Shown: positions 7,292 to 52,336 of the stretch, in pieces | Layout of the letters: each line of letters starts with the position of its first letter | Numbering within the stretch: the stretch's first letter is position 1 | From: a bacterium | GTDB lineage: Bacteria; Chloroflexota; Dormibacteria; Aeolococcales; Bog-877 | NCBI GenBank assembly: GCA_021801645.1 | Contig: JAJYXT010000021.1 | Span: forward strand, 1-54,064 | DNA length: 54,064 nt | Direction of reading: 5' to 3' | Notes under the pieces: model-generated | The model's input: the letters and a program-made list of their open reading frames with translations, nothing else | Told to the model about the DNA's origin: nothing | Databases searched by the model: none | Program-made: the position numbers and the translations under genes

Positions 7292-7353
7292 CCTCCGCAA
7301 TATGCAGCACCGGGGCCTCCTCGTGGGGGCCGACGGGCCTTTCTCCGGACAAC

Positions 7354-7359: not shown

Positions 7360-7365
7360 CAGGAC

Positions 7366-7590
7366 ATGGCTCCCATACTGCCACCGGGCCCGGTGGCGGA
7401 GGCCCAGCGGGTGGTGTTGCGCAAGATTAACCGGCGAGCCCCCCAGTTCATCAGCAACCTGGTCAGGTCGCGGCTGGTCGGCCACCAGGTCGAGGTGGGC
7501 CAGAAGATCCTGGTTTTTCAGGTGGCTTTCACTGAGCCCAAGGGGCTGGTGGAGGTCACCGCCCAGACCGCCATCGAGTTCATCAGCTGA
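7366..7590 (+). CDS. Small protein of unknown function (74 aa)
   Basis: I do not recognise this 74-residue protein. It has a basic, proline-rich N-terminus (residues 1-35, with RKINRRAPQ) followed by a hydrophobic, probably beta-rich second half. It has no membrane segment or cysteine. It ends five bases before the start of an ABC ATPase gene and so is almost certainly co-transcribed with the exporter genes 7596-9258. The start at ATG 7366 has no Shine-Dalgarno site but is preceded by a -10-like box at leaderless distance. Its job may concern the exporter; this rests on position alone. Confidence 0.55.
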   Translation: MAPILPPGPVAEAQRVVLRKINRRAPQFISNLVRSRLVGHQVEVGQKILVFQVAFTEPKGLVEVTAQTAIEFIS

Positions 7591-7595
7591 CGGCG

Positions 7596-29158: not shown

Positions 29159-29187
29159 ATCGTAGCAGGGAGATGCGCGACGGTCAG
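29159..29187 (-). promoter_or_regulatory. Candidate pgsA promoter
   Basis: On the minus strand CTGACC (29187-29182) and TACGAT (29164-29159) are 17 bases apart. The -35 box overlaps the dhaM stop codon. The predicted transcript leader is about 54 bases and includes the palindrome at 29113-29128. Confidence 0.4.
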
Positions 29188-31679
29188 CGGCGGGGCTCGG
29201 CGAGCAGCTCCCGCACCGCGTCCGCGTCGGGCAGCTGAAGCGCCCTCTCGGCCAGCCGGGTGGCCTGGGCGAGGGTGGTGGCCCGGACCGCCTCCTTCAC
29301 CCCAGGCACCAGCCGCGGCGCGGCGGACAGCTCCCTCACCCCCAGCCCGATGAGCAGCTCGGTGGCCAGGGGATTCCCCGCCAGCTCACCACAGACCCCC
29401 GCCCAGCGGCGGCCGGTGGCGGCCGCCGCGGTCAGCTGGATGAGGCGGAGGACAGCCGGGTGCAGCGGGTCGGCCAGCCCCCGCAGCTCGCCGTTCCCCC
29501 GGTCGGCCGCCATGGTGTACTGGGAGAGGTCGTTGGTGCCGATGGACATGAAGTCCACCAGCTCTGCCAGCCGGTCCGCTGCCAGCGCTGCCGCGGGGAC
29601 CTCGACCATGATCCCGACCTCCAGCGGTGGTATCCCCTCCCTCCGCTCGAACGTTGGCAGCGCGGCCAGGAGCTCCAGCGCTCGGCTGACCTCGCCCACC
29701 GTCGCCACCATGGGGAACATGACCCGGACCCGGTGCTCAGCCGCCACCCGGGCCACCGCCGCCAGCTGGGTTTTCAGGAGGTCTGGCCGTGCGAGACCCA
29801 GGCGCAGGCCGCGCACCCCGAGGGCCGGATTGGCCTCGGGATCCCGGGGCAGCGAGGCCAGCGGCTTGTCCGCCCCGACATCCAGCGTGCGGATGGTGAG
29901 CGGCCGGCCCAGCAGGGCCTCGGCGATCTCACGGTACTGTTGAAACTGCGCCTCCTCGTCGGGGAGGACCGGTTGGTCCTGGAACAGGAACTCGGTTCGC
30001 AGAAGCCCCACCCCGTCAGCGCCGGCCAGGACCGCGGCCCGGGCGTCGGCCACCGACCCGATGTTGGCCGCCACCTCCACCGTCACCCCATCCCGGGTCC
30101 GAGCAGCTCGGCTCGCGGCCTCGGAGGCGGCGCGGGCGGCGTCGGCCCGCCGGGCAGCCTCCTTCCGCACGGCCGCCTGCTCCTCATCGTTCGGGTCAAG
30201 GCGGACCACTCCCCGGTCGCCGTCCACGAGCACCGTGCGGCCGGCGGGAAGCTCGAGAAGCCCCGGCCCCACCCCGACCACCGCAGGGATGCCCAGTGAC
30301 CGCGCCAGGATGGCACTGTGGGAGGTCGGGCCCCCGGCCGCGGTGGCGATCCCGAGGACGGCCGCGGGGTCCAGCTGGGCGGTGTCCGCGGGGGTCAGCT
30401 CCTCGGCCACCAGCACCCCGGTGCCTGTCGGCCTCACCTCTGAGGTCCCCAGGAGGTGGGCCAGCACCCTCCTGGCCACGCCGTCCAGGTCGGCGGCCCG
30501 GAGGCGCAGCCGGGGGTCGGCGACCCTCTCCCAGCTCGCGTGAGCGGCCCTGGCGGCCGCCTGCCAGGCGGCCTCCGCGGTCACTCCGCCGGCTGAGATC
30601 GCTTCGCGCGCGCGCCCGACGAGCTCCGGGTCGTCCAGAAAGAGCAGGTCGGCGTCCAGAATGGCGGCGGCATAGTTGCCGGATCGTCTAGCCGTCAGAT
30701 CGCGCAGCTCCCTCAGCTCCTCCCGGACGGCCTCCAGGGCCCCCTCGAGTGAGCCGAGCTCCCGCTCTGGAGGCGCTGGGACCCGGTCGTGGACCTCCAG
30801 CTCAGCCTGTTCGAGGTGAACCACCTCGCCCACCGCGGCCCCGGGAGACGCCGGCAGCCCCACCAGCGTCCCGTCGGCGGGGAGCGCCTTGGGCGCCACG
30901 GTCGCCGGCACCTGGGAGGCCTCCTCCAGGTCGTCGAAGCCGCGGCCCGCCAGCTCGCCGATGCGGCTGAGTGCCACATCCGCGTCCGCCCCGCGGGCCT
31001 CTAAGAGGAGGATCTGGGACTTCCCGACCTGCAGGGTGGCGAGGGCGTTCAGGCTGCGGGCGCTGACCGGTCCCTCACCGGTGGTCGCGTTGGTGGCCCG
31101 GACCTCCGCGTCCAGCCCTGCCAGCTGCTGGACCACCCGGGCCGCCGGCCGGGCGTGAAGTCCCATGGGAAGCTCCACCCGCACCGTCAGCTCCTGCCAA
31201 CCCGCCCTCTCCTCCGAGGGCGCCGCGGGCTGAGCAGCGGGGGAGGCGTCACCCAGCTGGGAATGCTTCCCGGCTAGCCCCGACTCCGCCTCCTGCACCA
31301 CCTGCGCGAGGTCCGCACCTCCCTGGGCGGCCACCGCAGCCGCCACCGCGCCCTCAACCAGTGGGGCCGAACTCAGCCGGACCCCCTGGCGCCTCCCATC
31401 GGGGAGCAGATCCAACGCCAGCTCGGCCGAAAGGACGGCGCTGCCCAGGTCCATGAGGACGACCACCCCCGCCGGGGACCACGCGCGTTGGATCGACTCC
31501 GCCACCCGCTCGGCGTCTGTCCCCAGAACAGCCGGGTCATCCCCCACCCCGCCCGCCGGGACCACCAACACCTCCGGTGCCATGGCCGAGGCCAGAGCGG
31601 CAGCGCTGGCCGCCAGCTGGGAGCTGTGGGAGACCAGAACCAGGCGGACGCGATCCGTGGGCGAATCAGCTGCCACCAT
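29184..31679 (-). CDS. dhaM: DhaM-HPr-Enzyme I fusion, phosphoryl donor for dihydroxyacetone kinase
   Basis: The 831-residue protein has three parts. An EIIA-mannose-like DhaM domain (~1-125) holds phospho-acceptor His18 in VSHSSQLA. An HPr domain (~160-250) has His175 in LPMGLHARPAA. A complete Enzyme I (~270-831) has phospho-His454 in GGPTSHSAILARS, IGTNDLSQYTMAADR, and the catalytic Cys in GVCGELAGNP. The phosphate path would be PEP to EI to HPr to DhaM to the DhaL-bound ADP. E. coli DhaM is fused to HPr and only a truncated EI; here EI is full length. ATG 31679 overlaps glpC by 14 bases, placing it last in the glycerol operon. Confidence 0.93.
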   Translation of the reverse strand: MVAADSPTDRVRLVLVSHSSQLAASAAALASAMAPEVLVVPAGGVGDDPAVLGTDAERVAESIQRAWSPAGVVVLMDLGSAVLSAELALDLLPDGRRQGVRLSSAPLVEGAVAAAVAAQGGADLAQVVQEAESGLAGKHSQLGDASPAAQPAAPSEERAGWQELTVRVELPMGLHARPAARVVQQLAGLDAEVRATNATTGEGPVSARSLNALATLQVGKSQILLLEARGADADVALSRIGELAGRGFDDLEEASQVPATVAPKALPADGTLVGLPASPGAAVGEVVHLEQAELEVHDRVPAPPERELGSLEGALEAVREELRELRDLTARRSGNYAAAILDADLLFLDDPELVGRAREAISAGGVTAEAAWQAAARAAHASWERVADPRLRLRAADLDGVARRVLAHLLGTSEVRPTGTGVLVAEELTPADTAQLDPAAVLGIATAAGGPTSHSAILARSLGIPAVVGVGPGLLELPAGRTVLVDGDRGVVRLDPNDEEQAAVRKEAARRADAARAASEAASRAARTRDGVTVEVAANIGSVADARAAVLAGADGVGLLRTEFLFQDQPVLPDEEAQFQQYREIAEALLGRPLTIRTLDVGADKPLASLPRDPEANPALGVRGLRLGLARPDLLKTQLAAVARVAAEHRVRVMFPMVATVGEVSRALELLAALPTFERREGIPPLEVGIMVEVPAAALAADRLAELVDFMSIGTNDLSQYTMAADRGNGELRGLADPLHPAVLRLIQLTAAAATGRRWAGVCGELAGNPLATELLIGLGVRELSAAPRLVPGVKEAVRATTLAQATRLAERALQLPDADAVRELLAEPRR

Positions 31680-32898
31680 AGGCCCGGTGGAGGATCTCGA
31701 GGGGATGGACCGAGGTGGCTCCAGTGGCCGCCGAGATCTGCCAGCGGCAGGTCTCGCTGTCGCAGGCCACGAGGTCCGGTCCCTCGGCCTGGATGTCGGC
31801 GAAGAGAGGCTCCCCCACCCTCATGGCGATCTCGTACTTCTCCCGCTTGACCCCATACGTCCCGGCGATCCCGCAACAGGAGCGATCAAGCTCCACCAGC
31901 CGCAGCCCGGGGATGAGCCGGAGGATCTCCAGCGCCGGCTTCCCTATCAACTGGTTCTGCTGCTGGCAGGGAGCGTGGTACGCCACGGTGAGCGGCACCG
32001 GCTTGAAGTCAGTTCGGAGCTCGCCCCGCTGGTGGAGTTCCAGAAGGAACTCGAAGATGTCGTAGGTGCGCGCGCTGACCGAGCGCAGCTCCGGGGAGTC
32101 CGCGCCCAGGATCTCGCGGGCCTCCCGCTTGAGCATCAGGCCGCAGCTGGTGGAGGAGGAGATCACCGGAAGGTCACCTGTGCCGTCCGGGACCAGCTGC
32201 CGTGCCAGCTTGGTCACCGCCTTGCGGGCGGCCGGGAAGAGCCCATTGGACTGCAGCGGAAGCCCGCAGCAGTCCTGCTTGGGGATGACCACCTGGAAGC
32301 CGTTGTGCTCCAGGATGGCCGTGACCTTTTGACCAACGTACGGCTCGTACCACTGCGTGCTGCAGCCATGGAAGTAGACCACGCGGCGAGCTGACCTGGT
32401 GCCCACGTGGTGCCCCACCCAGTAGGAGAAGGTGCGGGTGGTGGAGCGGGGAACCGGCGCCTTGCGGTGAATGCCGACGGTACGCTCACCAGCCCAGCGG
32501 ATCAGGGAGTTGGCCATGGCCCAGTTGAAGAGAGGAGCCACCGGACGCCCAGCCCGCCCCAGCAGCCCTGGGCGGGCCACCAGCTGGTCGCGCAAGGGGG
32601 CCCCGCGTTCCCGCTTCAGCTCTGAGCGGGCCCTGGAGTTGAGCTCGGCGATCCGGACCTCCTGCGGGCACACCCTGCTGCAGATGCCGCAGCCGGAGCA
32701 GTAGTCCACAGAGAGGTCCGGCGAGTGGCCACCGGTGCGGAAGCGCTCCGCCTGGGGGCCAACGGTCTTGGGGCCGGGGAAGAGCTCGGTGACCGCGGCC
32801 ACCGGACAGGCGGTCTCACACACGGTGCACTTGATGCACCGGTCCAGCGAGGCCCGGACCTCCGACCACGCTTCCGCCCCCCAGGCCACCTCGGTCAT
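31666..32898 (-). CDS. glpC: Anaerobic glycerol-3-phosphate dehydrogenase subunit C
   Basis: The 410-residue protein has two N-terminal 4Fe-4S motifs (CIKCTVCETACP and CSGCGICSRVCP) and two cysteine-rich CCG domains (DCCGLPLQ and RSCCGIAGTYG), the GlpC/heterodisulfide-reductase-D layout. It passes electrons from GlpAB to membrane quinone. No classical transmembrane helix is seen; association with the membrane is expected through amphipathic segments. Its ATG overlaps the glpB stop (ATGA) and its end overlaps dhaM by 14 bases. Confidence 0.92.
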   Translation of the reverse strand: MTEVAWGAEAWSEVRASLDRCIKCTVCETACPVAAVTELFPGPKTVGPQAERFRTGGHSPDLSVDYCSGCGICSRVCPQEVRIAELNSRARSELKRERGAPLRDQLVARPGLLGRAGRPVAPLFNWAMANSLIRWAGERTVGIHRKAPVPRSTTRTFSYWVGHHVGTRSARRVVYFHGCSTQWYEPYVGQKVTAILEHNGFQVVIPKQDCCGLPLQSNGLFPAARKAVTKLARQLVPDGTGDLPVISSSTSCGLMLKREAREILGADSPELRSVSARTYDIFEFLLELHQRGELRTDFKPVPLTVAYHAPCQQQNQLIGKPALEILRLIPGLRLVELDRSCCGIAGTYGVKREKYEIAMRVGEPLFADIQAEGPDLVACDSETCRWQISAATGATSVHPLEILHRAYGGS

Positions 32899-34151
32899 GC
32901 GCGTACCCCCCCGGCCAGCCGAGCGGCGCGGAAGCCGGTCGCCAGGCTGATCCCCTCACCGGATTTCTCGCGCCAGGGTTCCGCTCCGGCCAGCGTCGCC
33001 CCGGCCGCCCAGAGGTTCTCGAAGAGCGGCTCCCCGCCCGCTCCCAGGGGCCGCTGCTGGTCGTCCACCTCGACACCGAGCCGGTCCAGCGGCTGGGTCG
33101 CCAGGTACTCGACCAGCGGCTCGTCCGGCGCCCCTCCCCTGGAGACCCGGGCGCCGAACACCTCCTCGCGCAGCTCACCGTCGGAGCCGGCCGTGATCCC
33201 CCCGGTCCCGATGCCCCCCGTGGCCAGAACGAAGCTGTCGGCCGGAATCTCCACCTCCCGCGCCGCCGTCACCACCCTGACCGCCTCCAGGCGGTCGCCG
33301 CTGGCACGGTACCCCGAAGCCCGAGCCCCCAACCGCACCTCGCCTCCCAGCCTTCGCAGCGCCCGGAAGAGGTGCTGCTGGAGCCGCTGCCCCGGCTGGG
33401 AGGGTGGGGGCGTGGGAATCTCGAAGACCGGCCTACCGACCAGGTCCTGGAGCCGCTGCCAGACCTCGTGGGAGCGCTCGAGCCCCAGGACCGCGGGCAC
33501 GCCCACCAGCTCCTCCTGCTCCAGGCGGGAGCGGATCTCCCGCCCGAGCTCCGCCAGCACCGGCCTCTCCTCCAGCCGCCGCGCCAGCAGCTGGGGCCGA
33601 AGGTCCCGGGGATCCCCGAGGAGGCTCACCTCCACCGACCGGGCGCGGATCTCTGCTCCCGACGGTGGATTCGCGAGGGCCAGATTCTCCGCCAGGAGCG
33701 GTGCGTGGAAGTCCCGAAACCCCCGGAGCCCCACCACCAGGACCGACCCTCCGCCGCTGAGGTCCCCGGCCGCCATGGTCTGGGGCACCAGGCAGGTGGG
33801 GCGCAGCGCCCCGAGAGCGGTGGGTTGCAGCCGGTTGATGTGCGGGCTCCCGACGTACCCCAGTGGCGCCGACAGCTCCAGGAACCACTCTAGGCTGGCC
33901 GCCACCTCGTCCGCCTCCACCAGGCGGTAGGGATGGTCGGGCCGGGACTCCAGAAAGCCGCCCAGCTCGGCCAGCGGATCCAGAACCAGCTGCGGCCGGT
34001 AGCCAAGCACATCCATCTGCGCGGGCGCCAGCGGCAGCCCGCCCTCGCCCTCCGCCAGGACCAGGACCGAGGCCCCAGCGGCGGCCAGCCGCAGCGCCGC
34101 GACCATTCCGGCTGTCCCGGCCCCCAACACCACCGCGTCCGTCCCCATCAC
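32895..34151 (-). CDS. glpB: Anaerobic glycerol-3-phosphate dehydrogenase subunit B
   Basis: The 418-residue flavoprotein begins with the dinucleotide-binding motif VVLGAGTAGMVAALRLA (residues ~6-22) and carries GEGGLPLAPAQMDVLGY, as in GlpB. A C-terminal FAD-binding strand is in ENLWAAGATLAGAEP. It works with GlpA and GlpC to oxidise glycerol 3-phosphate to dihydroxyacetone phosphate with electron transfer to quinone. Two adjacent ATG codons (34151 and 34148) can start it. It lies 31 bases after glpA and overlaps glpC by four bases. Confidence 0.88.
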   Translation of the reverse strand: MMGTDAVVLGAGTAGMVAALRLAAAGASVLVLAEGEGGLPLAPAQMDVLGYRPQLVLDPLAELGGFLESRPDHPYRLVEADEVAASLEWFLELSAPLGYVGSPHINRLQPTALGALRPTCLVPQTMAAGDLSGGGSVLVVGLRGFRDFHAPLLAENLALANPPSGAEIRARSVEVSLLGDPRDLRPQLLARRLEERPVLAELGREIRSRLEQEELVGVPAVLGLERSHEVWQRLQDLVGRPVFEIPTPPPSQPGQRLQQHLFRALRRLGGEVRLGARASGYRASGDRLEAVRVVTAAREVEIPADSFVLATGGIGTGGITAGSDGELREEVFGARVSRGGAPDEPLVEYLATQPLDRLGVEVDDQQRPLGAGGEPLFENLWAAGATLAGAEPWREKSGEGISLATGFRAARLAGGVRA

Positions 34152-34182: not shown

Positions 34183-35739
34183 TCACTCTGGCAGGTGCTC
34201 CAGGTCGTAGACCCCCTCGAAGATCCAGCGGTCCAGCCGCGTCTGCCGGGCCTGGGCTCCCCAGGAGATCACCTTGACCCCCTTCCAGCGCTCCTGGACG
34301 AACTCCCGGAGCGCCGAGTTGGCCTCCGCCCGGCCGTACCGGCCCTCCTGGTGCAGCATGCCGGCCACCCGGAAGGCGCAGAAACCGCCCTGGCAGGGGC
34401 CCATACCGACCCGCAGCGCCCGGCGGATGTCATCCAGCCGCCAGCTGGGGCGCCGGGCCACGACCGTGTCCAGATCGTGCTGGGAGACCAGCTCGCACTC
34501 GCAGATCAGAGGGTCGTCGGGCGGATCGGTCTCGGCCTCCTGCTGGCGGTTGCCAATCCAGTAGAAACGGTGCGACTCGCTCCCGGGAAGGACCTCGGTG
34601 CGGGTGCGGCACTCCGCCCCCCGCCCAAGCTTGCCCACCACCACGTCCACGGTGTCCTCGGCCATGAGGCGCAGGGTGGTGAATTTGCCTCCGGCGATGG
34701 TCACCAGCCCCTCGAGCCCGTCCCGGGCCCCGTGGTCCAGCACGGTGTGGGAGCGGCTGACCTCCCGGTCGCCTGCCCCTGCGGAGCCCTCCGTCTTGGG
34801 GAGGAGGGGCCGGGAGCCCGACCAGACCCTGAGAGCCCGGCTCTCCTTGAACCCCGGCACCAGCAGCTCGCCGGCCTCGATCATCTGATGGACCTCCTCC
34901 GGACTGCATTCGGTGTCGTCCGGGTCGGCCACCGGGTGGTCGGTGGTCCCGATCACGCTCACCGTGCGCACCGGGACGATGATGTCGCCGTCGGAGGGCA
35001 TGTGGCAGCGGTTGAGGACGGCCCGGGCCAGCCGGTGGTTGATCGCCACCATGACCCCCTTGCCCGGACGCACCCCGACCTCGCAGCCGGCCAGCTGAGC
35101 CACCTGGCCGCTCCAGGCGCCGGCAGCGTTGACGACGCACCCGGCGTTGACCTGCACCTCCTCCCCGGTGCGCTGGTCCTCCATCACCGCCCCCTCGACC
35201 CGGTCGCCCTGGCGGATCACCCTGACCACCTTGTGATAGGGGAGCACCGTGGCCCCATGGGCCTGGGCCCCCCGCAGCAGCGCGGAGATCATCTTCCAGG
35301 AGTCGATGGAGCCGTCCTGAACCCGGAAGGCCCGGCGGATCTTGGGGTTGAGGCGTGGCTCGTCCCGCAGGGCCACCCCCACCGGGATCTCCTCGATCTC
35401 CATCCCAGCGGCTCCGGCCGCGGCGAGGAAGCGGTCGGCGTACTCGAGGTCGTCTTCCGGGGTGCTGACGAACAGCCCGCCGGTGTCCTCGAGGCAGTCC
35501 GCGGCGACCTGGCGAAGGATCCGGTTCTCGGCCGCGCACTCGCGGGCCGAGCCCGGGTCCTTCACCGCGTAGCGCCCCCCGGAGTGCAGCAGGCCGTGGA
35601 AGCGGCCGCTGGTTCCGGTGGCGAAGTCCTGCCGGTCCACCAGGGTGACGTGGAGACCCCGCAGCGCGGAGTCCCACGCCACCCCCGCCCCGGTGGAGCC
35701 TCCCCCGATCACCAGGACGTCGGTGTCCAACGTGTTCAT
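34183..35739 (-). CDS. glpA: Glycerol-3-phosphate dehydrogenase, GlpA-type catalytic subunit
   Basis: The 518-residue FAD enzyme begins TDVLVIGGGSTGAGVAWDSALRG, contains the DAO-domain strand TIAGGKFTTLRLMAEDT, and has a C-terminal BFD-like region with cysteines (ICECEL and GMGPCQGGFC) that can hold a [2Fe-2S] cluster. The extra cysteine region separates GlpA from aerobic GlpD, and the presence of glpB and glpC behind it supports the GlpABC complex. It oxidises glycerol 3-phosphate. It starts 22 bases after the glpK stop. Confidence 0.93.
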   Translation of the reverse strand: MNTLDTDVLVIGGGSTGAGVAWDSALRGLHVTLVDRQDFATGTSGRFHGLLHSGGRYAVKDPGSARECAAENRILRQVAADCLEDTGGLFVSTPEDDLEYADRFLAAAGAAGMEIEEIPVGVALRDEPRLNPKIRRAFRVQDGSIDSWKMISALLRGAQAHGATVLPYHKVVRVIRQGDRVEGAVMEDQRTGEEVQVNAGCVVNAAGAWSGQVAQLAGCEVGVRPGKGVMVAINHRLARAVLNRCHMPSDGDIIVPVRTVSVIGTTDHPVADPDDTECSPEEVHQMIEAGELLVPGFKESRALRVWSGSRPLLPKTEGSAGAGDREVSRSHTVLDHGARDGLEGLVTIAGGKFTTLRLMAEDTVDVVVGKLGRGAECRTRTEVLPGSESHRFYWIGNRQQEAETDPPDDPLICECELVSQHDLDTVVARRPSWRLDDIRRALRVGMGPCQGGFCAFRVAGMLHQEGRYGRAEANSALREFVQERWKGVKVISWGAQARQTRLDRWIFEGVYDLEHLPE

Positions 35740-35761: not shown

Positions 35762-37258
35762 TCACTCCACCCAGTCGAAGGTGCGGGTGACGGCCTTCTT
35801 CCAGAGCCGGTACTCCTTCTCTCGAAGCTCGGAGTCCATCCGGGGCTCCCAGGTCCGGTCCACTCCCCAGTTGGCCCGCAGCTCGTCCAGCTGGGTCCAG
35901 AAGCCCACCGCCAGCCCGGCGGCGTAGGCGGCGCCGAGCGAGGTGGTCTCGGCCACCTTGGGCCGGATCACCGGAACTCCCAGCACATCCGCCTGGAACT
36001 GCATCAGCAGCTCGTCGTGGACCATGCCGCCGTCCACCCGGAGGGAGGTCAGGGCGACCCCCGAGTCCTGGTTCATGGCGTCCACCACCTCGCGGGTCTG
36101 CCAGGCGGTCGCCTCCAGGACGGCCCTGGCGATGTGGCCCTTGTTGACGTAGCGGGTGAGGCCGGCGATCACGCCCCGGGCGTCGCTGCGCCAGTAGGGG
36201 GCGAAGAGGCCGGAGAAGGCGGGCACGAAGTAGACCCCGCCGTTGTCCTCCACCGTGGCGGCCAGCTTCTCGATGTCCGAGGACTGGCTGATCATCCCCA
36301 GGTTGTCCCGCAACCACTGCACCAGGGCACCGGTGATCGCGATCGAGCCCTCGAGGCAGTAGACCGCCGGCTGGTCGCCGATCTTGTAGCCGAGGGTGGT
36401 CAGAAGGCCGCTCTTGGACTGGATCGGGCTGGTGCCGGTGTTGAGCAGGAGGAAGTTCCCCGTGCCGTAGGTGTTCTTGGCCTCGCCCACGGCGTAGCAG
36501 GTCTGCCCGAAGATGGCCGCCTGCTGGTCGCCCAGGTCGCCGGCCACCGGCACCCCCGGAAGGGGCTCTTTGCAGGTGCCGTACACCTCACTTGAGGGAC
36601 GGATCTGGGGCAGCATGGCCCGGGGGACCCCGAGGATCCCGAGGATCTCGTCATCCCAGTCCAGGGTCTTGAGGTTCATCAACATGGTGCGGCTGGCGTT
36701 GGTGACGTCGGTGAGATGCAGGCCTCCGTTCACCCCGCCGGTGAGGTTCCAGATGCACCAGCTGTCGATGTTGCCGAAAACCACCTCGCCCCGCTCGGCC
36801 CTCTCCCTGACCCCGGGTACGTTGTCCAGGATCCAGCGGATCTTGGGGCCGGAGAAGTAGGTGGCCAGCGGCAGCCCCACCTTCTCCCGGAAGCGGTCCT
36901 GACCGCCATCCTTGGCCAGGTCGTTGCAGATGGTGTCGGTCCGGGTGTCCTGCCAGACGATGGCGTTGTGCACCGGCCGACCGGTGGTCTTGTCCCAGAC
37001 CACAGTGGTCTCGCGTTGGTTGGTCACCCCCACGGCGGCCAGGTCGGACGGCTGGATCCCCGCCTTGGCCAGCGCCCCGGAGATCACCTCCTTGCTGCGG
37101 GTCCAGATCTCCATCGCGTCGTGCTCGACCCACCCGGGCTTGGGGTAGATCTGCTCATGCTCCTTCTGGTCCACCGCGATCACGTTCCCGGAATGATCGA
37201 AGATCATGAACCGGGTGCTGGTGGTCCCCTGATCCAGGGCCCCCACGTACTTGGCCAT
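35762..37258 (-). CDS. glpK: Glycerol kinase
   Basis: The 498-residue FGGY kinase begins [15 protein letters not shown], with [23 protein letters not shown] and [15 protein letters not shown], and is full length. It phosphorylates glycerol with ATP to glycerol 3-phosphate for GlpABC. The loop before GDQQAA (residues ~224-240) reads [14 protein letters not shown]. Low-GC Gram-positive enzymes have a YHF[YF]G stretch there whose histidine is phosphorylated by HPr; that histidine is missing here. It lies between dhaL (54 bases) and glpA (22 bases). Confidence 0.96.
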
Positions 37259-37312: not shown

Positions 37313-37951
37313 CTAGTTGCCCTTCGCGAAAGCAGCCTCCGCCGCTTGCATCAGGAGCCAGGACGAGGTCGCCCCTGGATCCTGGTGCCCCTGACTCCGC
37401 TCTCCCAGATAGCTGGCCCTGCCCCGTCGGGCCAGGAGCGGGATCGTGGCCTCCATCCCTTGGTGGGCCGCGGCCGTGGCCCGGGCGAGCCCCTCGGCAA
37501 GGGTCACCCCCTCATCGGCCGCCGCCCGGAGCGCCTCCGCCGCCGGGAGCAGCGCGTCCACCATGGTCTTGTCCCCTGGCTCCGCCTTGCCCCGGGCCTG
37601 GACCGCCGTCACCGCCGCCAGAACCGCCTCCGCCCAGTCGGAAAGCTCGATCTCCGACTTGCCCTTGAGGCTGGAGGACAGCTGCAGGAAGACGGTGCCG
37701 TACAGCGGGCCGCTGGCCCCCCCCACGGTGGAGATGAGGGCCATGGCCACGGTCCGAAAGAGCCCGGAGATGTCCTGGTCGGTGAGTGCCTCCACCTTGG
37801 GGATTACGGCGCGCATCCCCCGGTCCATGTTGATCCCGTGGTCGGCGTCCCCGATCTCCGCGTCCAGCTGGGTCAGGAACTCCCGGTTGGCGGCGACGGC
37901 CTCCGCGAAGCCCTGCACGAAGGAGACGCACTCGGGGTAACCCGCCCCCAT
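37313..37951 (-). CDS. dhaL: Dihydroxyacetone kinase subunit L
   Basis: The 212-residue protein has the nucleotide/Mg-binding cluster LDAEIGDADHGINMDRG (residues ~29-45, three conserved aspartates), VGGASGPLYGTVFLQ, and a late DPGATSSWLLMQA. This is the ADP-binding subunit of PEP-dependent dihydroxyacetone kinase: the ADP stays bound and is rephosphorylated by DhaM. It is separate from DhaK, unlike the one-chain ATP-dependent kinases. It starts 52 bases after dhaK. Confidence 0.95.
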   Translation of the reverse strand: MGAGYPECVSFVQGFAEAVAANREFLTQLDAEIGDADHGINMDRGMRAVIPKVEALTDQDISGLFRTVAMALISTVGGASGPLYGTVFLQLSSSLKGKSEIELSDWAEAVLAAVTAVQARGKAEPGDKTMVDALLPAAEALRAAADEGVTLAEGLARATAAAHQGMEATIPLLARRGRASYLGERSQGHQDPGATSSWLLMQAAEAAFAKGN

Positions 37952-38003: not shown

Positions 38004-39005
38004 TCAGGCCCCCCAGCGCAGCCCGGGGGTGTTGACTGGCGCGTCCCAGAGCCGCACCAGCTCGTCGTCGAGCCGGAGCAGCGTGATCGAGGTGCCGGCC
38101 ATCTCCAGAGAGGTGATGTACGAGCCCACCAGATTCCGCTCGATGGTGATCCCGCGGCCCTTCAGGAAGCGGTCCAGGGCCCGGTAGACCACGTATAGCT
38201 CGATCAGGGGGGTGCCGCCCATGCCGTTGACGAACGCCAGGACCCGGTCGTTGGACTTGAAGGGGAGGTCGTCGACGATGGTGCTGGCCAGCACCTCGAC
38301 GATCTCGTCGGCGGTGGCCAGCTTGCGCCGCTCCCGACCGGGCTCTCCGTGGATCCCGATCCCGATCTCCATCTCGTCCTCGCCCAGCTCGAAGGTGGGC
38401 TTGCCCGCCGCCGGCACCGTGCAGGAGGTGAGCGCCATGCCCATCGAGCGGCCGTTGGCGTTGACCTTGCGGCAGAGCTCGGCCACCTCGCCGAGCGGGC
38501 GCCCGGCCTCGGCGGCCGCGCCGCAGATCTTCTCGGCCAGGACCGTGACGCCCACGCCGCGACGGCCCGCGGTGTAGAGGCTGTCCTGGACCGCCACGTC
38601 ATCGTTAGTCACCACCGCCTCCACCTGGATGCCATCCTCCTTGGCCAGATCCGCCGCCATCTCGAAGTTGAGGATGTCCCCGGTGTAGTTCTTGACGATG
38701 TGCAGCACCCCGGCGCCCCCGCTGACCGCCTTGGTGGCGGCCAGGATCTGGTCAGGGGTGGGAGAGGTGAACACCTCCCCGGGGCAGGCTGCGTCCAGCA
38801 TGCCGCGCCCCACGAAGCCCCCGTGCATCGGCTCGTGGCCCGAGCCCCCGCCGGAGACCACCGCCACCTTGCCCTGGACTGGGGCGTCCTTGCGCATCAC
38901 GTAGTAGGGGTCGAGAGAAACCTTGACCCGGTCGGAGTGAGCGGCGGCGATTCCTTCCAGCTCCTCCCGGACCACATCGTCGGGTCGGTTGATCAGCTTC
39001 TTCAT
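38004..39005 (-). CDS. dhaK: Dihydroxyacetone kinase subunit K
   Basis: The 333-residue protein matches DhaK along its length, with [18 protein letters not shown] (active-site His), [13 protein letters not shown] (catalytic Asp), and GIGIHGEPG, whose histidine forms a hemiaminal bond with dihydroxyacetone. It binds dihydroxyacetone for phosphoryl transfer from DhaL-ADP~P. It is the second gene of the glycerol operon, 24 bases after glpF. Confidence 0.96.
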
Positions 39006-39029: not shown

Positions 39030-39986
39030 CTACGGGGTGACGTTGGGCTCTTTGGTCCCGACCTCCGACCCCTCGTGCTCGTGGTGCTTGAGCCTCGAGG
39101 CGAGGACGTCGCCGATGAAGAAGTCGTAGAGCAGGACTCCCACGACCCCGCCCACCAGCGGACCCACGATGGGGATCCAGAAGTAGTTGGAGAAGTGGAA
39201 CGCCCCCGCGCTGTAGGTCCCGGGGAAGGCCACCTTGCCCCAGCCGAAGAGCCAGGCCACGAAGCGGGGCCCGAAGTCACGGGCGGGGTTGATGGCGTAC
39301 CCGGCGTTGGGGCCGTAGGACATGCCGATGGCGCCCACCGCCGCGCCCACCAGCCAGGGGCCCATGTTGCCCGCCGGCGCCAGGTTGCGGCCGTCGGTGA
39401 TCGCCAGGACCAGGATGAGAAGGAAAGCCGTGCCCACGATCTGGTCCACCAGCGGCCCCACCACGCTGCCGTGGAAGTAGGGGGCGGGGAAGGTGGCGAA
39501 GATCGAGTAGCTGGCCAGCGCGTTGCCCGCCGACGGGACCGTCTTGGCCGCCAGGTCCCAGGCTTGGATCGCCGGACCGTAGACCATGTAGACGATGAGA
39601 GCGCCGAAGATCGCCCCCACCAGCTCCGCCCCCATGTAGGGGAGGACCTTGTTCCAGGGGAACTTGCGGCGCACCGCCAGCCCCAGGGTCACCGCCGGGT
39701 TGAGGTGGGCGCCGGTGATCCCGCCCGCCACGTAGATGCCCATCACCACCGCGAACATCCATCCGAAGGTGATGAGCAGCCAGTCGCCGCCCGCCTGGAA
39801 GATGGTGGTGGGGCTCGCCGTCCTTCCTGACCCGGGAAGGCCCGCCACGGCCACCGCCACCACGCCGTCACCAAAGGCGAGCAGCGTCAGGGTGCCGAAG
39901 AACTCGGCCATGAGCTCGCCCCAGAGGCCGCTCAGCCCGGCGAAGGACCTCCCCTCACCGTGCAGCGGCGTGTATTCCATCGCCAT
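39030..39986 (-). CDS. glpF: Glycerol uptake facilitator (aquaglyceroporin)
   Basis: The 318-residue MIP-family channel has both pore motifs, HLNPAVTLG and AINPARDFGPR, and six membrane helices. It is longer than E. coli GlpF (281 residues), with a hydrophilic N-terminus and a charged, His-rich C-terminal tail (HHEHEGSEVGTKE). The Asp after the second NPAR fits a glycerol-conducting rather than a water-only channel. ATG 39986 has AGGAGGG eight bases upstream. It is the first gene of the eight-gene glycerol/dihydroxyacetone operon. Confidence 0.94.
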   Translation of the reverse strand: MAMEYTPLHGEGRSFAGLSGLWGELMAEFFGTLTLLAFGDGVVAVAVAGLPGSGRTASPTTIFQAGGDWLLITFGWMFAVVMGIYVAGGITGAHLNPAVTLGLAVRRKFPWNKVLPYMGAELVGAIFGALIVYMVYGPAIQAWDLAAKTVPSAGNALASYSIFATFPAPYFHGSVVGPLVDQIVGTAFLLILVLAITDGRNLAPAGNMGPWLVGAAVGAIGMSYGPNAGYAINPARDFGPRFVAWLFGWGKVAFPGTYSAGAFHFSNYFWIPIVGPLVGGVVGVLLYDFFIGDVLASRLKHHEHEGSEVGTKEPNVTP

Positions 39987-40061
39987 GCCAGCATCCCTCC
40001 TCTGATCCGCTCTCGACCGCGCGCCGTGGTGGAGAATCGCCACTCACGAGTCGGCAGCGAG

Positions 40062-40172: not shown

Positions 40173-40850
40173 TCAGGGGGAGCTGGGAGCGGCGCCCCGG
40201 CGCCGCGGGCGGCCTGGTGAGGGCTCGGGCATCCCCTCCGCGGGGGCCGCTGGGGCCGCCTCATCCTGGGACTTACGGTACTGACGGTAGACGGCGTGGA
40301 TGCGCTGCAGGGCGGTCAGGTTGGTGGCCACCGCCAGTATCCAGAGGACCGGCACCATGAGGCCCAGGATCAGGCCCAGAGCGGTGATCACGACCCGCTC
40401 CGGACGGGCGAACCAGCCGACGTCGCAGGTGTACCCGAGTGACTGCGCCCGGGCCCGCACGTAACTGACCAGCAGGGAGCCGAAGAGCGCCGCCACGATC
40501 AGGAAAACCGGGACCTCCTGATGGAGGTGGGCGAGGAAGAGGTAGGCGAGGCCGGCGTAGAGCACCCCCTCTCCGTACCGGTCGGCGGTGCTGTCCAGGA
40601 AGGCGCCGAAGGGGTGTACCCGGCCGGACTCCCGGGCCACGGCTCCGTCGAGGATGTCGAAGGCCCCTGCCAGGAGCAGAACGATCCCCGCCCACAGCTG
40701 GAGGTCGAGGGCCGCCAGCGCCGCCGCGCCGCCGGCGATGGCCAGCCCGATCAGGGTGATGGCGTTGGGGCTCAGCCCCGCCAGCCGGCTGGCGGCGGCA
40801 AGCCGCTGGGCGGCCGCCCTAACGGAGGCCTGGAGCAGTCTGCTGAACAC
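40173..40850 (-). CDS. Phosphatidylinositol phosphate synthase-like CDP-alcohol phosphatidyltransferase
   Basis: The 225-residue membrane protein has the signature D-I-L-D-G-A-V-A-R followed by GAFLDSTADR, with five to six helices and a conserved WFARPERVVI segment, as in actinobacterial PgsA1/PIP synthase. Those enzymes join CDP-diacylglycerol to inositol 3-phosphate, the product of Ino1, which is encoded in the same operon. GTG 40850 follows AGAGGTG at about eight bases and overlaps the glycosyltransferase gene by 32 bases. The C-terminal ~30 residues are proline-rich. Head-group specificity is inferred from context. Confidence 0.82.
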   Translation of the reverse strand: MFSRLLQASVRAAAQRLAAASRLAGLSPNAITLIGLAIAGGAAALAALDLQLWAGIVLLLAGAFDILDGAVARESGRVHPFGAFLDSTADRYGEGVLYAGLAYLFLAHLHQEVPVFLIVAALFGSLLVSYVRARAQSLGYTCDVGWFARPERVVITALGLILGLMVPVLWILAVATNLTALQRIHAVYRQYRKSQDEAAPAAPAEGMPEPSPGRPRRRGAAPSSP

Positions 40851-41991
40851 TTGGTTGCACCTCTTGGGAGGGGCGCTGACGCAGCGCCCTACGGTAAACC
40901 TGAAGAACCCGGTCCGCCACCAGCGGCCAGGCGTAACGCTCAGCGGTCGCCCGGCCCCGACGCCCCATCTCCCTGCGGAGTTCCGGATGATCGAGGAGGT
41001 GGGCGAGGGCACGGGCCATCTGCCCCTCGTCCCCCTTGGGGACCAGCAGCCCTTCCTGGCCGTCGGTGAGTACTTGGCGGAACCCGTCTATCGCCGTCGC
41101 CACCACCGGGCGGCCGCTGGCCATCGCCTCCAGGAGGATCACCCCGAAGGACTCCTTGCCGGTGTTGGGGGCGCAGTAGATGTCACAGGCGGTGAGGTGG
41201 GCGGGCTTCTCCTCTTCTGGAACGAAGCCCAGGAACCGGACGTCCGGGATCCCCTCCTCCTCGACCCGGCGCTCATACCCCCGGCGCAGCGGGCCGTCCC
41301 CGATGACCACCAGCTGGCAGTCGGTGCGCACCTGGCGGAGCAGCTGGTAGGCGTCGAGAAGGGTGGACAGCCCCTTGCGCTCCTCGAGGCGGCCCAGGAA
41401 GAGGATGGTTGTGCGCCTCTGGTCGCGGATGCCGGGCTTGGGGGATACCTCGGGATGGAAGCGCTGAGGGTCGATCCCGTTGGGGATCACGGTGTAGTCA
41501 CCGGGGAAGTAGCGCGCCACGAAACGCCGCGCCGGCTCGGACACCGCGATGCAGGCGTCTAGATGGCGGAACTGCCGGCGCAGGATCGGGCGGCCGTAGT
41601 AGTAGCCGAGGTTCTGGCGGGCATAGGCGTGGAAGGTTCCCACCGCGGCGCTGGCCTGGTTCAGCCGGAGGACGGTGATCGGCAGGGCCGGCATGAGCGG
41701 CTCGTGGATGTGGAGGACGTCGAAGGCCTCCTCGGCCAGGACCGAACGGATCCGGCGGGTGAGGTGGAACGAGAGCGAGATCCTGGCCACCGAGCCGTTG
41801 GCCGGGAAGGGGATGGGCCGCCCCAGCGGGATCAGCCCCTCCACATCCAACCGTTCGCCGCCGGCAGCCGGGGCCAGCACCTTGACCAGGTGCCCGCGCC
41901 GCCGCAGCTCCTCGGCGAGGTGGCGGACATGCTCCCCGACCCCGCCGGGGCGCTGGTAGTCGTAGGGGGAGACCATCCCCACCCGGATCAC
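40819..41991 (-). CDS. PimA-like glycosyltransferase (GT-B, family GT4)
   Basis: The 390-residue glycosyltransferase starts VIRVGMVSPYDYQRPGGVGEHV, the GT-B acceptor-side glycine loop. It contains LGRPIPFPANGSVARISLS, matching PimA, and the donor-site EX7E-type segment KESFGVILLEAMASGRPVVA. In actinobacteria PimA adds mannose from GDP-mannose to phosphatidylinositol, the first step of PI-mannoside synthesis on the cytoplasmic face. GTG 41991 overlaps the stop of the upstream acyltransferase gene (GTGA). Its neighbours make and acylate the same lipid. Confidence 0.87.
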   Translation of the reverse strand: MIRVGMVSPYDYQRPGGVGEHVRHLAEELRRRGHLVKVLAPAAGGERLDVEGLIPLGRPIPFPANGSVARISLSFHLTRRIRSVLAEEAFDVLHIHEPLMPALPITVLRLNQASAAVGTFHAYARQNLGYYYGRPILRRQFRHLDACIAVSEPARRFVARYFPGDYTVIPNGIDPQRFHPEVSPKPGIRDQRRTTILFLGRLEERKGLSTLLDAYQLLRQVRTDCQLVVIGDGPLRRGYERRVEEEGIPDVRFLGFVPEEEKPAHLTACDIYCAPNTGKESFGVILLEAMASGRPVVATAIDGFRQVLTDGQEGLLVPKGDEGQMARALAHLLDHPELRREMGRRGRATAERYAWPLVADRVLQVYRRALRQRPSQEVQPSVQQTAPGLR

Positions 41992-43052
41992 GAGGCCACC
42001 TCGCGCAGCCCGGGTGGCTCTGGCTCCTCGGCCGCCATCGGGGGGCCGAAGATCGGGTTCATCACATGCCACTGATCGGGGTGGGCCCGGAGCTCCGGCT
42101 CCAGGGTGCGCAGGATGCGCCGGGCAGCCGCCTCCAGGTCAGCACCGGGCTCCTTGCCCAGGGTGACCGTGAAGGGGGCGAAGCCACGGCAGTGGTAGTT
42201 GTCCTGATCGTCGCGGGTGAGGGAGACGGGCAGCACCGCCGCCCCGGTCCGGGCGGCGATCTCCACCGCCCCCAGGGGGATCGAGGCGCGGTGTCCCAGG
42301 AACGCCATCTCCGCCCCGGTCCCCAATAGGTCGCGGTCGACGGCGATCACCACCACGCCTCCGGCACCCAGGATCCGGTAGATCTGCCGTACCGCCGCGG
42401 CCCCGGAGCGATGGACAGCCGCCTGGTCCCCACGGCGCACCGCGTCGACGTTGAGGGGCACCACCTGGCAGCCGACCCGGGCGCGGTTGCGAACCAGCCA
42501 GTTGAAGCAGCGGATGGGCCGAACCTGCTCGGCCAGGAGCGCCAGCCCGACTCCCTCGAAGTTCTCCCGGAGAGCGGCGATGGCGGCTTCCCAGGAGCCC
42601 AGGTGCAGGCTGACGATGATCACTCCGCGGCCCAGGCGGCGCGCCTCCTCCAGGAGGTGGGCGTCCTCGGTCCGCAGCCAGGGGGTCCAGGCATCGAGGG
42701 GCCGATGGCTCATCTGCAGCACGTCGATCCAGGCCTTCAGGAAGTTGCGCACGTTGGCGCGAAGGAGGCGGCGCATCTCCCGTCGGCCCAGGCCGGGGCG
42801 AACCACCGCTAGATTGGTCCTAAGCCCCTGCCAGTGGGAGGGCCAGCACAGCGTGAGAGCCGCTGACAGCGGCCCCGCGAACCAGTAGGCGACCCGCCGG
42901 TCCACGGCTCGCATCACCACCTCCGCGCTCCGCAGCCCGAGGTAGGGCAGCCAGGGCTCGTCGGGGTCGGGGCGCGGCAGGCTGGACGGCAGGCCAACCT
43001 GGCGGACCCGCCCCAGCGCGGCCCATGGGCTGGGGACCACCCGCACCTTCAT
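41988..43052 (-). CDS. LpxL/HtrB-like acyltransferase, probable PI-mannoside acyltransferase (PatA-like)
   Basis: The 354-residue protein belongs to the lysophospholipid/lipid A acyltransferase family, with the HX4E pair in SLHLGSWEAA, an AVDRDLLGTGAEMAFLG segment and HPDQWHVMNPIF at the end. An acyltransferase next to PimA corresponds to Rv2611c (PatA) in mycobacteria, which acylates the mannose of PIM. ATG 43052 overlaps the stop of the other acyltransferase gene (ATGA), and its own stop overlaps the PimA-like gene. The acceptor is inferred from gene order. Confidence 0.82.
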   Translation of the reverse strand: MKVRVVPSPWAALGRVRQVGLPSSLPRPDPDEPWLPYLGLRSAEVVMRAVDRRVAYWFAGPLSAALTLCWPSHWQGLRTNLAVVRPGLGRREMRRLLRANVRNFLKAWIDVLQMSHRPLDAWTPWLRTEDAHLLEEARRLGRGVIIVSLHLGSWEAAIAALRENFEGVGLALLAEQVRPIRCFNWLVRNRARVGCQVVPLNVDAVRRGDQAAVHRSGAAAVRQIYRILGAGGVVVIAVDRDLLGTGAEMAFLGHRASIPLGAVEIAARTGAAVLPVSLTRDDQDNYHCRGFAPFTVTLGKEPGADLEAAARRILRTLEPELRAHPDQWHVMNPIFGPPMAAEEPEPPGLREVAS

Positions 43053-44005
43053 CGTCCCCCACCGGGAACGGCCGCCGGGAGGCGGTGGAAGGCGAACCAC
43101 TGCGACGGCTCCTGTCCAATGATCCGCTCGAACGCCGAGGCGATCTGCTGGGTCAGCGCCTGGACGCGCTCTCCCGAGCTCGCGGGCGGCGGCCAGGGAA
43201 GGGGGTCGAGCAATCGCGCCTCATGCCTACCCCGCGGCCAGCGCCGGACGAATCCGGGGATGATCGGGGACTCGGTGTGCAGCGCCAGCGTGGCAGGACC
43301 CGCCGGGAAGGTGACCCTCCTCCCGAAAAAGGTAACCGCCACCCCGCTTCCAGTGTGGTCGATGTCCGCGGCCAGACAGAGGACGTCCCCGCGGCGTAGG
43401 ACGCGCAGTGCCTCCCGGCCGCTGGTCGGCCCGCTGGGGATGACCGTGACACCCACCCGCTCTCGCATGGCCCTCACGCGCCGGTCGACAGCTGGTGGGC
43501 CGAACCGGTCGGCCACAGCGAACACGGGGCGGCCGGCGGCGGCGGTCATGGCCGCACCGAGGTCCCAGTTCCCGAAGTGGGGAGTGACCACGATCGCCGT
43601 CCGGTGGGTGGCCAGAACCCGGCGCAGGGGCCCGGACTCGACCATCTCCTGCGCCTCACCGGTGGCCCGGACTAGCGACTCCAGCACCAGGAAGTCCATG
43701 ACAGTGCGCGCGTAGTTGCGGAAGGCGCGGCGGGTCAGGCGGCGGGCCTCGGAGGGGCTGCTGGCGAAGATCCGGTAGTTCTCCTCCGCCAGCCGGGAGC
43801 GCGGGCGAAGCAGCCAGTAGGCGCCCTCGCCCCCGATGTCCGCCAATCCGTAGCGGAGGGCGGTGGGCAGGGCCGAGGTTAGGGATGTGGCCGCCGCCAG
43901 AAGCAGGCCGAGGTGCTCACCCCGGCGCGCCCACTCCGAGACGGCCCGCCGCGGGGATGGCAGGAGCCGGCCGGCCCCAATCTCCCCCGCCGCCACGGTC
44001 GCCAT
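43049..44005 (-). CDS. Second LpxL/HtrB-like acyltransferase
   Basis: The 318-residue protein is a distant paralogue of the next gene, with the catalytic pair as HX4D in TPHFGNWDLG, LAADIDHTGSGVAVTFFG, and QEPSQWFAFHRL at the end. It probably acylates a glycolipid, perhaps a second position of the PI-mannoside. ATG 44005 lies 35 bases after the ino1 stop, without a strong ribosome site. It is coupled to the next acyltransferase by a four-base overlap. Confidence 0.8.
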   Translation of the reverse strand: MATVAAGEIGAGRLLPSPRRAVSEWARRGEHLGLLLAAATSLTSALPTALRYGLADIGGEGAYWLLRPRSRLAEENYRIFASSPSEARRLTRRAFRNYARTVMDFLVLESLVRATGEAQEMVESGPLRRVLATHRTAIVVTPHFGNWDLGAAMTAAAGRPVFAVADRFGPPAVDRRVRAMRERVGVTVIPSGPTSGREALRVLRRGDVLCLAADIDHTGSGVAVTFFGRRVTFPAGPATLALHTESPIIPGFVRRWPRGRHEARLLDPLPWPPPASSGERVQALTQQIASAFERIIGQEPSQWFAFHRLPAAVPGGGR

Positions 44006-44040
44006 CCGCGTGCCCCGGGCCCCGGCCCGCTCCCTGCCCT

Positions 44041-45219
44041 TTACCCGTCCGCCGGGCGGGCGGCGAGAGGCTGGGTGTCCCCCGTCGCGTCCTGGCTCGG
44101 CCGGGGAGCGTGGTCCGCCTCGGGGTCGCTGATGCACTTGGCTCCAACCCGGCCGGCGATGAAGAGCTCGGTGAGTTCGTGAGCCCGCTCGTCCGAGACC
44201 TGGAAGGGCGGTGACTTCATGAAGTACGAGGCGGGGCCCTCGAGCGCCCCGGACAGCCCCCGCTCCAGACCCAGCTTGCAGCAGCGGACGGCGTCGATGA
44301 CGATCCCGGCCGAGTTGGGGGAGTCGTGCACCTCAAGCTTCAGGTCCACCGTGAGCGGCACCTCCCCGAAGGCCTTGCCCTCCATCCGGATGTGCGCCCA
44401 CTTGCGGTCCTTCAGCCAGGGGACGTAGTCGCTGGGGCCGATGTGCACGTCCTCCCGTCCGATCTCGTGCTCCATCTGGGAGAGGACGGAGTTGGTCTTG
44501 GAGATCTTCTTGCTCACCAGCCGCTCGCGCTCCAGCATGTTGAGGAAGTCGGTGTTCCCTCCGAAGTTGAGCTGATAGGTGTGCTCCAGCTTGACCCCGC
44601 GCTCCTGGAAGAGCCGGGTCAGAACCCTGTGGATGATGGTGGAGCCCACCTGGGACTTGATGTCATCGCCGATGATCGGCAGCCCCCGCTCCTCGAAGCG
44701 CTGCCGCCAGTACTGCTCGCGGGCGATGAACACCGGCATGCAGTTGACCATGGCGCAGCCTGCCTCCAGGATCTGCTCGGTGTACCACTTGGTGGCCATC
44801 TCGGAGCCCACCGGAAGGTAGTTGACGACCACGTCGGTGCCAGTGTCCTTGAGGATCTTGACGATGTCGGCGGTCGGCCCAGGGGCCTTCTCGATCACCT
44901 CGGAGAGGTACTTGCCGAGGCCGTCGTGGGTCATCCCGCGATGCACCGGCACCCCGAGCGGCCCCACCTTGGCGAAGGCCACGGTGTTGTTCTGTCCCCG
45001 CCAGATCGCCTCTCCCAGGTCGTATCCCACCTTCTCCTTGTCGATGTCGAAGGCGGCGGAGAACTCGATGTCCCCGACGTGATACCCGCCCAGGTCCACG
45101 TGCATCAGCCCGGGAACGAACTGGGAGGGCTCGGTGTGGCGATAGAACTCCACACCCTGGACGAGGGAGGAGGCGCAGTTCCCCACGCCGATGATGGCCA
45201 CGCGGACTTTCTTGCTCAC
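44041..45219 (-). CDS. ino1: Inositol-3-phosphate synthase
   Basis: The 392-residue enzyme has the NAD-binding [18 protein letters not shown] at the N-terminus, [31 protein letters not shown] and the [12 protein letters not shown] segment, all typical of the short actinobacterial/archaeal Ino1. It converts glucose 6-phosphate to inositol 3-phosphate. It is preceded one base away by an ArsR-family gene and followed by the lipid genes that would consume its product. The last ~30 residues are a disordered tail. Confidence 0.95.
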
Positions 45220-50986: not shown

Positions 50987-51385
50987 GGCAGCAACCTATC
51001 AGTGCCGGCGCCGTGAATGGGGAACCTCTCCCCCTCGGCCCGCGGGTAGCTCGAGGGCCATCCCTGCAGGAGGGGCGTTCCACGGTTCCGGACGGCTCGT
51101 GAGCTGACTTCAGGAGCGGGGCACGGGGGCGGTGCCCGGCCCCTGCACGGTGTGGGTAGACGTCCGTCCACAAGTTCAGGCAGATCGCGGGGGCTCACCC
51201 CCGGAGCAGCCCGGCGGAGACTCACCTGGCACTCCGGCAGTGACGCGGGTCGCCTCCGGCAAGGGCCCGGCCACCACTCCGCACGGACCAACGATGCACC
51301 CGAGGTGTCAGCTCCGGAACCGACTATCCAATCCGAGTCGATCACCACGCTCCCGGCCACCGAGACGCGCATCTCCGCGGGGAGG
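50987..51385. other. Intergenic region, no gene called
   Basis: About 400 bases without a convincing gene, RNA or terminator. A minus-strand frame is open through most of it (starting near 51399 and running into the osmC gene), but its composition is low-complexity, rich in Pro, Arg and Ser, and matches nothing I recognise. It may hold the osmC promoter at its left end or the remains of a decayed gene. Confidence 0.4.
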
Positions 51386-52018
51386 TCACCGCGAGGCAAT
51401 AGGCTTACTGCGGGGAATCGCGACGAAGCTGATTTGCGGGTCGTGGAGAAGCGTGGGAGCCCCGTCCACTACAAGGTCCGCGCGCGCCACGGGGTCGTTC
51501 TCAGCGACGTAGGTGTCCTCGGCGGCCATCCACCGCTGCCAGAGTGGGGCGGCTCTGGCACCGTCCCGCTGAAGTCCTCGGCGCAACCGTTCCGCTCGAT
51601 CAGTGTGGATCCAAACGAGAAACGCGAGGTGCTCAGCCCACTCAAGACGCCCGGAGCTGACACCCTCGATGAGCACGGCTGGAGCGGTGGGCACCTCCAC
51701 CCATTCAGCAAGCTCGCGTCTCGCCCAGTCGTAGCGCTGGTAGCGGGCTGGACGGCTCTGGGAAAGGGGCTCGATCACCTGGCTCAGAAGCCTCGGCCCC
51801 CACTCCAGTGGGGCATCGGCCGAGGCGAAGTCGTCCGTAGGCACGACCGGAGCCCCTCCGAGCGCAATCGACAGCCTCTCGGCAAAGGTGCTCTTACCCG
51901 CTCCCCCTGGCCCGTCGACGGCCACCAGAACAGGGCGGCGCCCGGGAAGGCGCGCGATCTGAAGACCAAGTCCCTGAAAGGACCTCACCGTTGCATGAGG
52001 CAATTCGACTTCGTTCAT
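51386..52018 (-). CDS. Uridine kinase-like P-loop ATPase
   Basis: The 210-residue protein has Walker A DGPGGAGKSTFAERL (~residues 35-49), VVPTDDFASAD, and YDWARRELAEW, as in uridine kinase/phosphoribulokinase-like proteins. VVDG near the end matches the DxVxDG segment of that group. It should phosphorylate a nucleoside or similar small alcohol, but the substrate is not fixed. ATG 52018 lacks a ribosome site; a small inverted repeat GGGAA/TTCCC (52019-52033) abuts the start codon. Confidence 0.75.
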   Translation of the reverse strand: MNEVELPHATVRSFQGLGLQIARLPGRRPVLVAVDGPGGAGKSTFAERLSIALGGAPVVPTDDFASADAPLEWGPRLLSQVIEPLSQSRPARYQRYDWARRELAEWVEVPTAPAVLIEGVSSGRLEWAEHLAFLVWIHTDRAERLRRGLQRDGARAAPLWQRWMAAEDTYVAENDPVARADLVVDGAPTLLHDPQISFVAIPRSKPIASR

Positions 52019-52336
52019 GGGAAGCAGTTTCCCACCGAACCCGCTGGCAGCCTACCGTCGGGCGGTCATCCGTCCGCCCGGCAAAGCGGTCTCGGGTCAC
52101 GCCCTTCAGGCAGGGGTAGCCCGTAGCCACCGTGCCGAGGTATGCCCCACGGCCTTGCACCCTTGACCCAGCCGGGGGGGGCACGAGCGCAGACCCGCTG
52201 ACGCCACCAGCCAGGACCATCACCCCGGAAGCTTCTCCCTGCCGTGGGCCACCTCGCCGTCCACACGGGGGACCAGAGACGACCCCAGGGCTGGCCCCTC
52301 GGGGCCACTTTGCAACTCTCTCTGCAACAACCCTCC
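52019..52336. other. Intergenic region, no gene called
   Basis: No protein-like frame is seen. It contains the 5-bp inverted repeat at the start codon of the kinase gene and a hairpin CGGGCGG/CCGCCCG (52059-52080, eight-base loop). Downstream of the tRNA on the minus strand there is no obvious T-rich terminator. Confidence 0.4.

Follow-up and report, generated by a model that had tools for sequence, protein, structure and literature searches.

A single open reading frame in a Dormibacterota-like bacterium raises two questions: whether one polypeptide could carry phosphate all the way from phosphoenolpyruvate (PEP) to a soluble dihydroxyacetone (DHA) kinase, and whether that polypeptide could be the only phosphotransferase system (PTS) of its lineage. 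The frame lies at positions 29184–31679 (minus strand) of the 54,064-nucleotide stretch of DNA analysed here (the window), which belongs to a metagenome-assembled genome (MAG) of 2.13 Mb in 100 contigs, estimated to be 84.7% complete.

Domain architecture of the fusion protein

The frame is free of stop codons over its entire length and encodes an 831-residue predicted multiphosphoryl transfer protein (MTP) of the type DhaM-HPr-Enzyme I (EI), as judged from Pfam, NCBIfam and an alignment to E. coli EI. On the minus strand, it starts with an EIIA-Man/DhaM domain bearing the phospho-acceptor His18 (residues 9–135, positions 31275–31655; Pfam EIIA-man at residues 13–127, E = 8e−19), followed by an HPr domain with His175 in the motif GLHARPAA (residues 163–245, positions 30945–31193; Pfam HPr at 165–243, E = 3e−14). 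The Enzyme I part is full length (residues 272–826). Its N-terminal portion (EI-N, residues 272–500, positions 30180–30866) comprises the HPr-binding and phospho-His454 domains, with Pfam matches to PEP-utilisers_N (274–394) and the mobile phospho-His domain (422–490), and is followed by the PEP-binding domain with the catalytic Cys763 (EI-C, residues 522–831, positions 29187–30116; Pfam match at 522–801, E = 6e−93). Each of the five Pfam matches exceeded its curated cut-off, and the E-values for the DhaM, HPr and EI-C domains exclude chance similarity.

At the level of whole-protein models, the MTP scored above cut-off against the NCBIfam DhaM model TIGR02364 (109 versus 98 bits) and the Enzyme I model TIGR01417 (451 versus 341.7 bits, covering model positions 1–564 of 565). 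Its score against the E. coli-type DhaM model PRK11377 (473 residues) fell below cut-off (309 versus 520 bits), and the match was confined to MTP residues 11–493, which identifies the additional half as the PEP-binding EI-C domain. Fold matches for the EI and DhaM domains, the latter including DhaM structures 3cr3 and 3ct6, were consistent with the sequence assignment. The AlphaFold model of the complete chain was of modest confidence (pLDDT 78.8, pTM 0.50), making the relative arrangement of domains, and any meeting of His454, His175 and His18 within it, unreliable.

A sequence-only reading of this locus had placed the three phospho-histidines at residues 18, 175 and 454, and all of them are present at exactly these positions. 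It had further described the PEP-binding half of EI as complete, catalytic Cys included, which agrees with the near-complete coverage of TIGR01417, with the alignment of the MTP to residues 3–564 of E. coli EI (2kx9/2hwg) and with the presence of Cys763. The contrast it drew with E. coli DhaM, whose EI is truncated and which needs general EI and HPr, is borne out by the 473-residue PRK11377 model and by published work (PMC3863723).

An apparent glycerol and dihydroxyacetone operon with the MTP gene at its end

The MTP gene is apparently the last of one operon, glpF-dhaK-dhaL-glpK-glpA-glpB-glpC-MTP, with all genes on the minus strand. An aquaglyceroporin-like MIP channel (GlpF-like, 39030–40043; Pfam, and TIGR00861 above cut-off) is followed by the DHA-binding subunit DhaK (38004–39005; TIGR02363 above cut-off), in which the catalytic His region GIHGEPG is kept, and by the PTS-type ADP-binding subunit DhaL (37313–37951; TIGR02365 above cut-off). 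The closest solved structures to both subunits are those of E. coli (DhaK, 1oi2 and 4lrx; DhaL, 2btd and 3pnl). Then come a glycerol kinase of the FGGY family, named GlpK from its Pfam FGGY domains and operon context (35762–37258), and the three subunits of an anaerobic glycerol-3-phosphate dehydrogenase, GlpA (34183–35739; TIGR03377), GlpB (32895–34151; TIGR03378) and the Fe-S subunit GlpC (31666–32898; TIGR03379 and PRK11168), each above cut-off. The start of the MTP gene overlaps the stop of glpC by 14 nt (ATGGTGGCAGCTGA, 31679–31666), which suggests that the two are translationally coupled. Promoter and terminator scans across the operon gave no result.

With separate DhaK and DhaL subunits and a DhaM donor, all above cut-off for TIGR02363, TIGR02365 and TIGR02364, respectively, the DHA kinase of the window is classified by its sequence as the PTS type. 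The eight-gene order is kept in relatives at L005–L008 and at L148, L150 and L151, some of the latter three being cut at the ends. Where a fused locus extends far enough for dhaL to be seen, the gene nearly always lies directly before the fusion gene or elsewhere in its operon. Taken together, its domain content, its position adjoining dhaK and dhaL, and its intact phospho-histidines and EI residues mark the predicted protein as a member of the EIIA-Man multiphosphoryl transfer proteins.

No ATP-driven DHA kinase was seen in the same genome. The sole other DAK2 protein was considered for this role and rejected as FakA-like, having an N-terminal DAK2 domain, FakA middle and C-terminal domains, and no Dak1. 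Likewise, no glycerol dehydrogenase that could serve as a source of DHA was recognised among the genome's matches: one iron-containing alcohol dehydrogenase exceeded its Pfam cut-off, was fitted best by other alcohol dehydrogenase models, none of them above its own cut-off, and is no clear GldA. The simplest guess is that external DHA is taken up through the channel.

Elsewhere in the window, the minus-strand genes at 40173–45219 form a run resembling actinobacterial phosphatidylinositol mannoside (PIM) synthesis, which is of interest for a Dormibacterota-like genome. Its members include an inositol-3-phosphate synthase and two acyltransferases, for which mycothiol_INO1 and the PIM acyltransferase model, respectively, come closest, as well as a GT4 glycosyltransferase and a CDP-alcohol transferase nearest to models of archaetidylinositol/phosphatidylinositol phosphate synthases; none of these genes reached a curated NCBIfam cut-off. 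Two long open frames on the plus strand, 6158–8014 (618 aa) and 51152–52126 (324 aa), had no Pfam match and are listed as candidate genes.

Integrity of the Enzyme I half and selection on the fusion

Aligned to E. coli EI, the MTP keeps Arg296, Arg332, Asp335, Lys340, Arg358, Glu431, Asn454, Asp455, Arg465 and Cys502 (E. coli numbering); in its own numbering, the PEP-binding arginines, Glu693 and Asp717 are present alongside Cys763 and the three phospho-histidines. We then compared 29 fused homologues, comprising the MTP of the window and proteins from Dormibacterota, other Chloroflexota, Mycobacterium, Pseudonocardia, Acidobacteria, Alkalispirochaeta and two MAGs labelled as Bacteroidota. Where covered, not one substitution occurred at the tested EI residues, the three phospho-histidines, HPr Arg17 or HPr Ser46, the only other state being a gap, mostly where the locus was cut. 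Inactive EI residues, which would have spoken against the sequence-only reading, were thus found neither in the E. coli alignment nor among the homologues.

Comparison with genus mates (84–94% identical) gave dN/dS values of 0.05–0.27 in each of DhaM, HPr, EI-N and EI-C, with values in the linkers, which contain few codons, lying above those of the domains. Purifying selection acts on each of these four domains, EI-C among them, and the low dN/dS together with the unsubstituted catalytic residues indicates that EI-C is not decaying.

A separate observation concerns HPr Ser209, the equivalent of Ser46, which is invariant in the 29 fused proteins although a search of the window's family detected no HPr kinase; across the class, only two short partial matches to HPr kinase were detected. 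Conservation of this serine is probably structural.

PTS content of the genome, family and class

Profile searches of the 84.7% complete MAG identified one HPr and one EI-N domain, both within the MTP, no separate ptsH or ptsI, and no EIIC of PF02378. In the window's family, HPr and EI above cut-off were found in 11 of 18 genomes, with one copy of each, always in the same place, and in frames of 804–947 residues except for one cut by a contig end. Extending the permease search to the class, we detected no EIIC of the PF02378 and PF03609 superfamilies in 81 genomes, while control genomes gave matches; this absence covers these two superfamilies.

The alternative that fares best is that further PTS components escaped the assembly or the profile searches, and that the MTP is one of several PTS branches. 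A second ptsH or ptsI could indeed be missing from a MAG at this level of completeness, and extra EI genes accompany the fusion in about 8 of about 27 fusion genomes elsewhere in the phylum. Nevertheless, the HPr/EI-bearing members of the family, several of which are 90–93% complete, all have a single copy, and the class-wide lack of both EIIC superfamilies points the same way, so we consider this alternative improbable.

It is therefore well supported by these sequence searches that the MTP is the likely only PTS of its own genome and family, as had been proposed from the sequence on condition that the genome lacked sugar permeases; the check suggested with that proposal was a search for ptsI, ptsH and EIIBC genes, and the profile searches for HPr, EI-N and PF02378 EIIC in the genome returned the two MTP domains and nothing else. 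The companion claim of a PTS devoted to one soluble kinase is equally well supported by dhaK and dhaL in the operon and the lack of EIIC of the two superfamilies, the activity itself being a prediction. More broadly, in the window's family, and perhaps in most of the class, the whole PTS probably exists only for a soluble triose kinase, with no sugar permease and no HPr kinase, and in the family the relay from PEP to DhaL would be a single polypeptide.

Fused and split arrangements

Across 301 genomes of the phylum, the DhaM domain was present in 97 and the EI-N domain in 128. Both occurred in one frame in about 27 of the 97 genomes (two tables combined by hand), comprising 25 frames of 798–920 residues, one frame truncated at a contig end and one broken frame. 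In about 19 of the 27, the fused protein was the only EI. Outside the phylum, fused relatives were seen in Mycobacterium, Pseudonocardia, Acidobacteria and Spirochaetes.

Other layouts occur in the same class. In family f3, a glpF-dhaK-dhaL-glpK-glpABC-dhaM operon closes with a stand-alone DhaM (L153, L157 and L160; genomes G199, G167 and G017); HPr and EI genes stand divergently beside glpF at L153 and L157, and at L160 the operon alone is visible. In family f4 and one f2 genome (L152, L154, L155, L156 and L158), dhaK, dhaL and EI form a row with DhaM on the opposite strand, and no HPr was detected at these five loci with the HPr of the window as query. Together with the fusion, these layouts indicate that the locus, fused or split, often brings its own relay. 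The f3 loci and that of the window form a natural fused/split pair. In the EI tree, the fusions of the window's family formed one clade (100/100); all fusions taken together required four changes, and the starred branches force at least two.

Proposed phosphoryl relay

In a PTS, phosphate passes from EI to HPr to EIIA. By this scheme, PEP would bind the EI-C barrel and phosphorylate His454, from which the phosphoryl group would move, within one chain or between the chains of a dimer, to His175 in the HPr domain and on to His18 in the DhaM domain. His18 would then phosphorylate ADP bound in DhaL, and the resulting DhaL-ATP would phosphorylate DHA held by DhaK, yielding DHAP and pyruvate overall, in keeping with the reported transfer order from DhaM through DhaL-ADP to DhaK-DHA (PMC3863723). 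Both DHA and glycerol could enter through the GlpF-like channel, with GlpK and GlpABC converting glycerol to the same product, DHAP, so that one operon would make all the parts required. The phosphate path and substrate are extrapolated from those DHA kinase and PTS families that have been characterised. On this basis, the MTP is very probably a complete single-chain phosphoenolpyruvate:DhaL phosphotransferase, and the only PTS of the lineage, without a role in sugar transport.

The relay might also be wider or different: besides DhaL, the MTP would phosphorylate GlpK, a regulator or some acceptor not yet recognised, and would serve glycerol metabolism as a sensor of PEP/pyruvate. Co-encoding with glpK and glpABC would fit such a role, as would regulation of GlpK by PTS proteins in other bacteria (PMC12607858) and the invariant Ser209. 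Against it, the search of the family returned no HPr kinase, and dhaL adjoins the MTP gene, or shares its operon, at nearly all informative fused loci. Moreover, the 19-residue stretch of the window's GlpK that would correspond to the site of the phosphorylated His in Firmicutes contains no His. We regard a wider relay as quite improbable. That a weak or silent EI half leaves the MTP dependent on general EI and HPr encoded elsewhere, in the way that the general PTS feeds the short PRK11377 protein of E. coli (PMC3863723), is highly implausible, given that the profile searches detected no separate HPr or EI gene in the genome or the family and that EI-C is under purifying selection with every tested catalytic residue kept.

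A single-chain relay dedicated to DhaL would have practical consequences. EI and HPr in a genome need not mean sugar transport by a PTS, and an annotation of 'PTS present' in such genomes should not be equated with PTS sugar uptake. Such a relay is a clean natural case of a PTS pared down to a soluble kinase with a single donor protein, which makes it a minimal test system for intra-chain phosphate transfer, and fused and split operon forms within one class provide a setting in which to study the origin of MTPs.

Comparison with known systems

The DhaM-HPr-EI architecture is already known. In 2008, Comas et al. described multiphosphoryl transfer proteins of the EIIA-Man kind that are without exception associated with genes for DHA kinase, the E. 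coli members lacking the EI domain (PMC2405797), and the novelty implied for the fusion by the sequence-only reading is correspondingly smaller. The potentially new element is a lineage whose one and only PTS serves DHA: a literature search, whose coverage excluded subscription papers, older reviews among them, turned up no published DHA-only PTS for this lineage.

Like the proteins of Comas et al., the MTP of the window combines EIIA-Man, HPr and EI in a single chain encoded beside DHA kinase genes; it differs in its Dormibacterota-like lineage, in having glpF, glpK and glpABC in the operon and in being apparently the only PTS. E. coli DhaM (YcgC, PRK11377, 473 aa) has DhaM, HPr and the N-terminal EI part in the same order and the same partners, DhaK and DhaL, but lacks the PEP-binding EI-C and needs general EI and HPr, whereas EI of the window is complete. 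L. lactis DhaM (3ct6, 3cr3) has the same fold and contacts DhaL, yet it is a single-domain protein with HPr and EI unfused, receiving phosphate from the general PTS. Pseudomonas FruB-type proteins (EIIA-Fru-HPr-EI) likewise hold a complete PEP-to-EIIA relay in one chain (PMC2405797), but their EIIA is of another family and feeds a membrane fructose permease rather than a soluble kinase. Haloferax volcanii DhaKLM is also a PEP-dependent DHA kinase beside glycerol metabolism; there, however, DhaK, DhaL and DhaM are described as subunits and a fructose PTS is also present (PMC3863723). To these known systems, our analysis adds an MTP joined to a glpFK-glpABC operon, its likely status as the sole PTS across a family, and a contrast of fused and split forms within one class.
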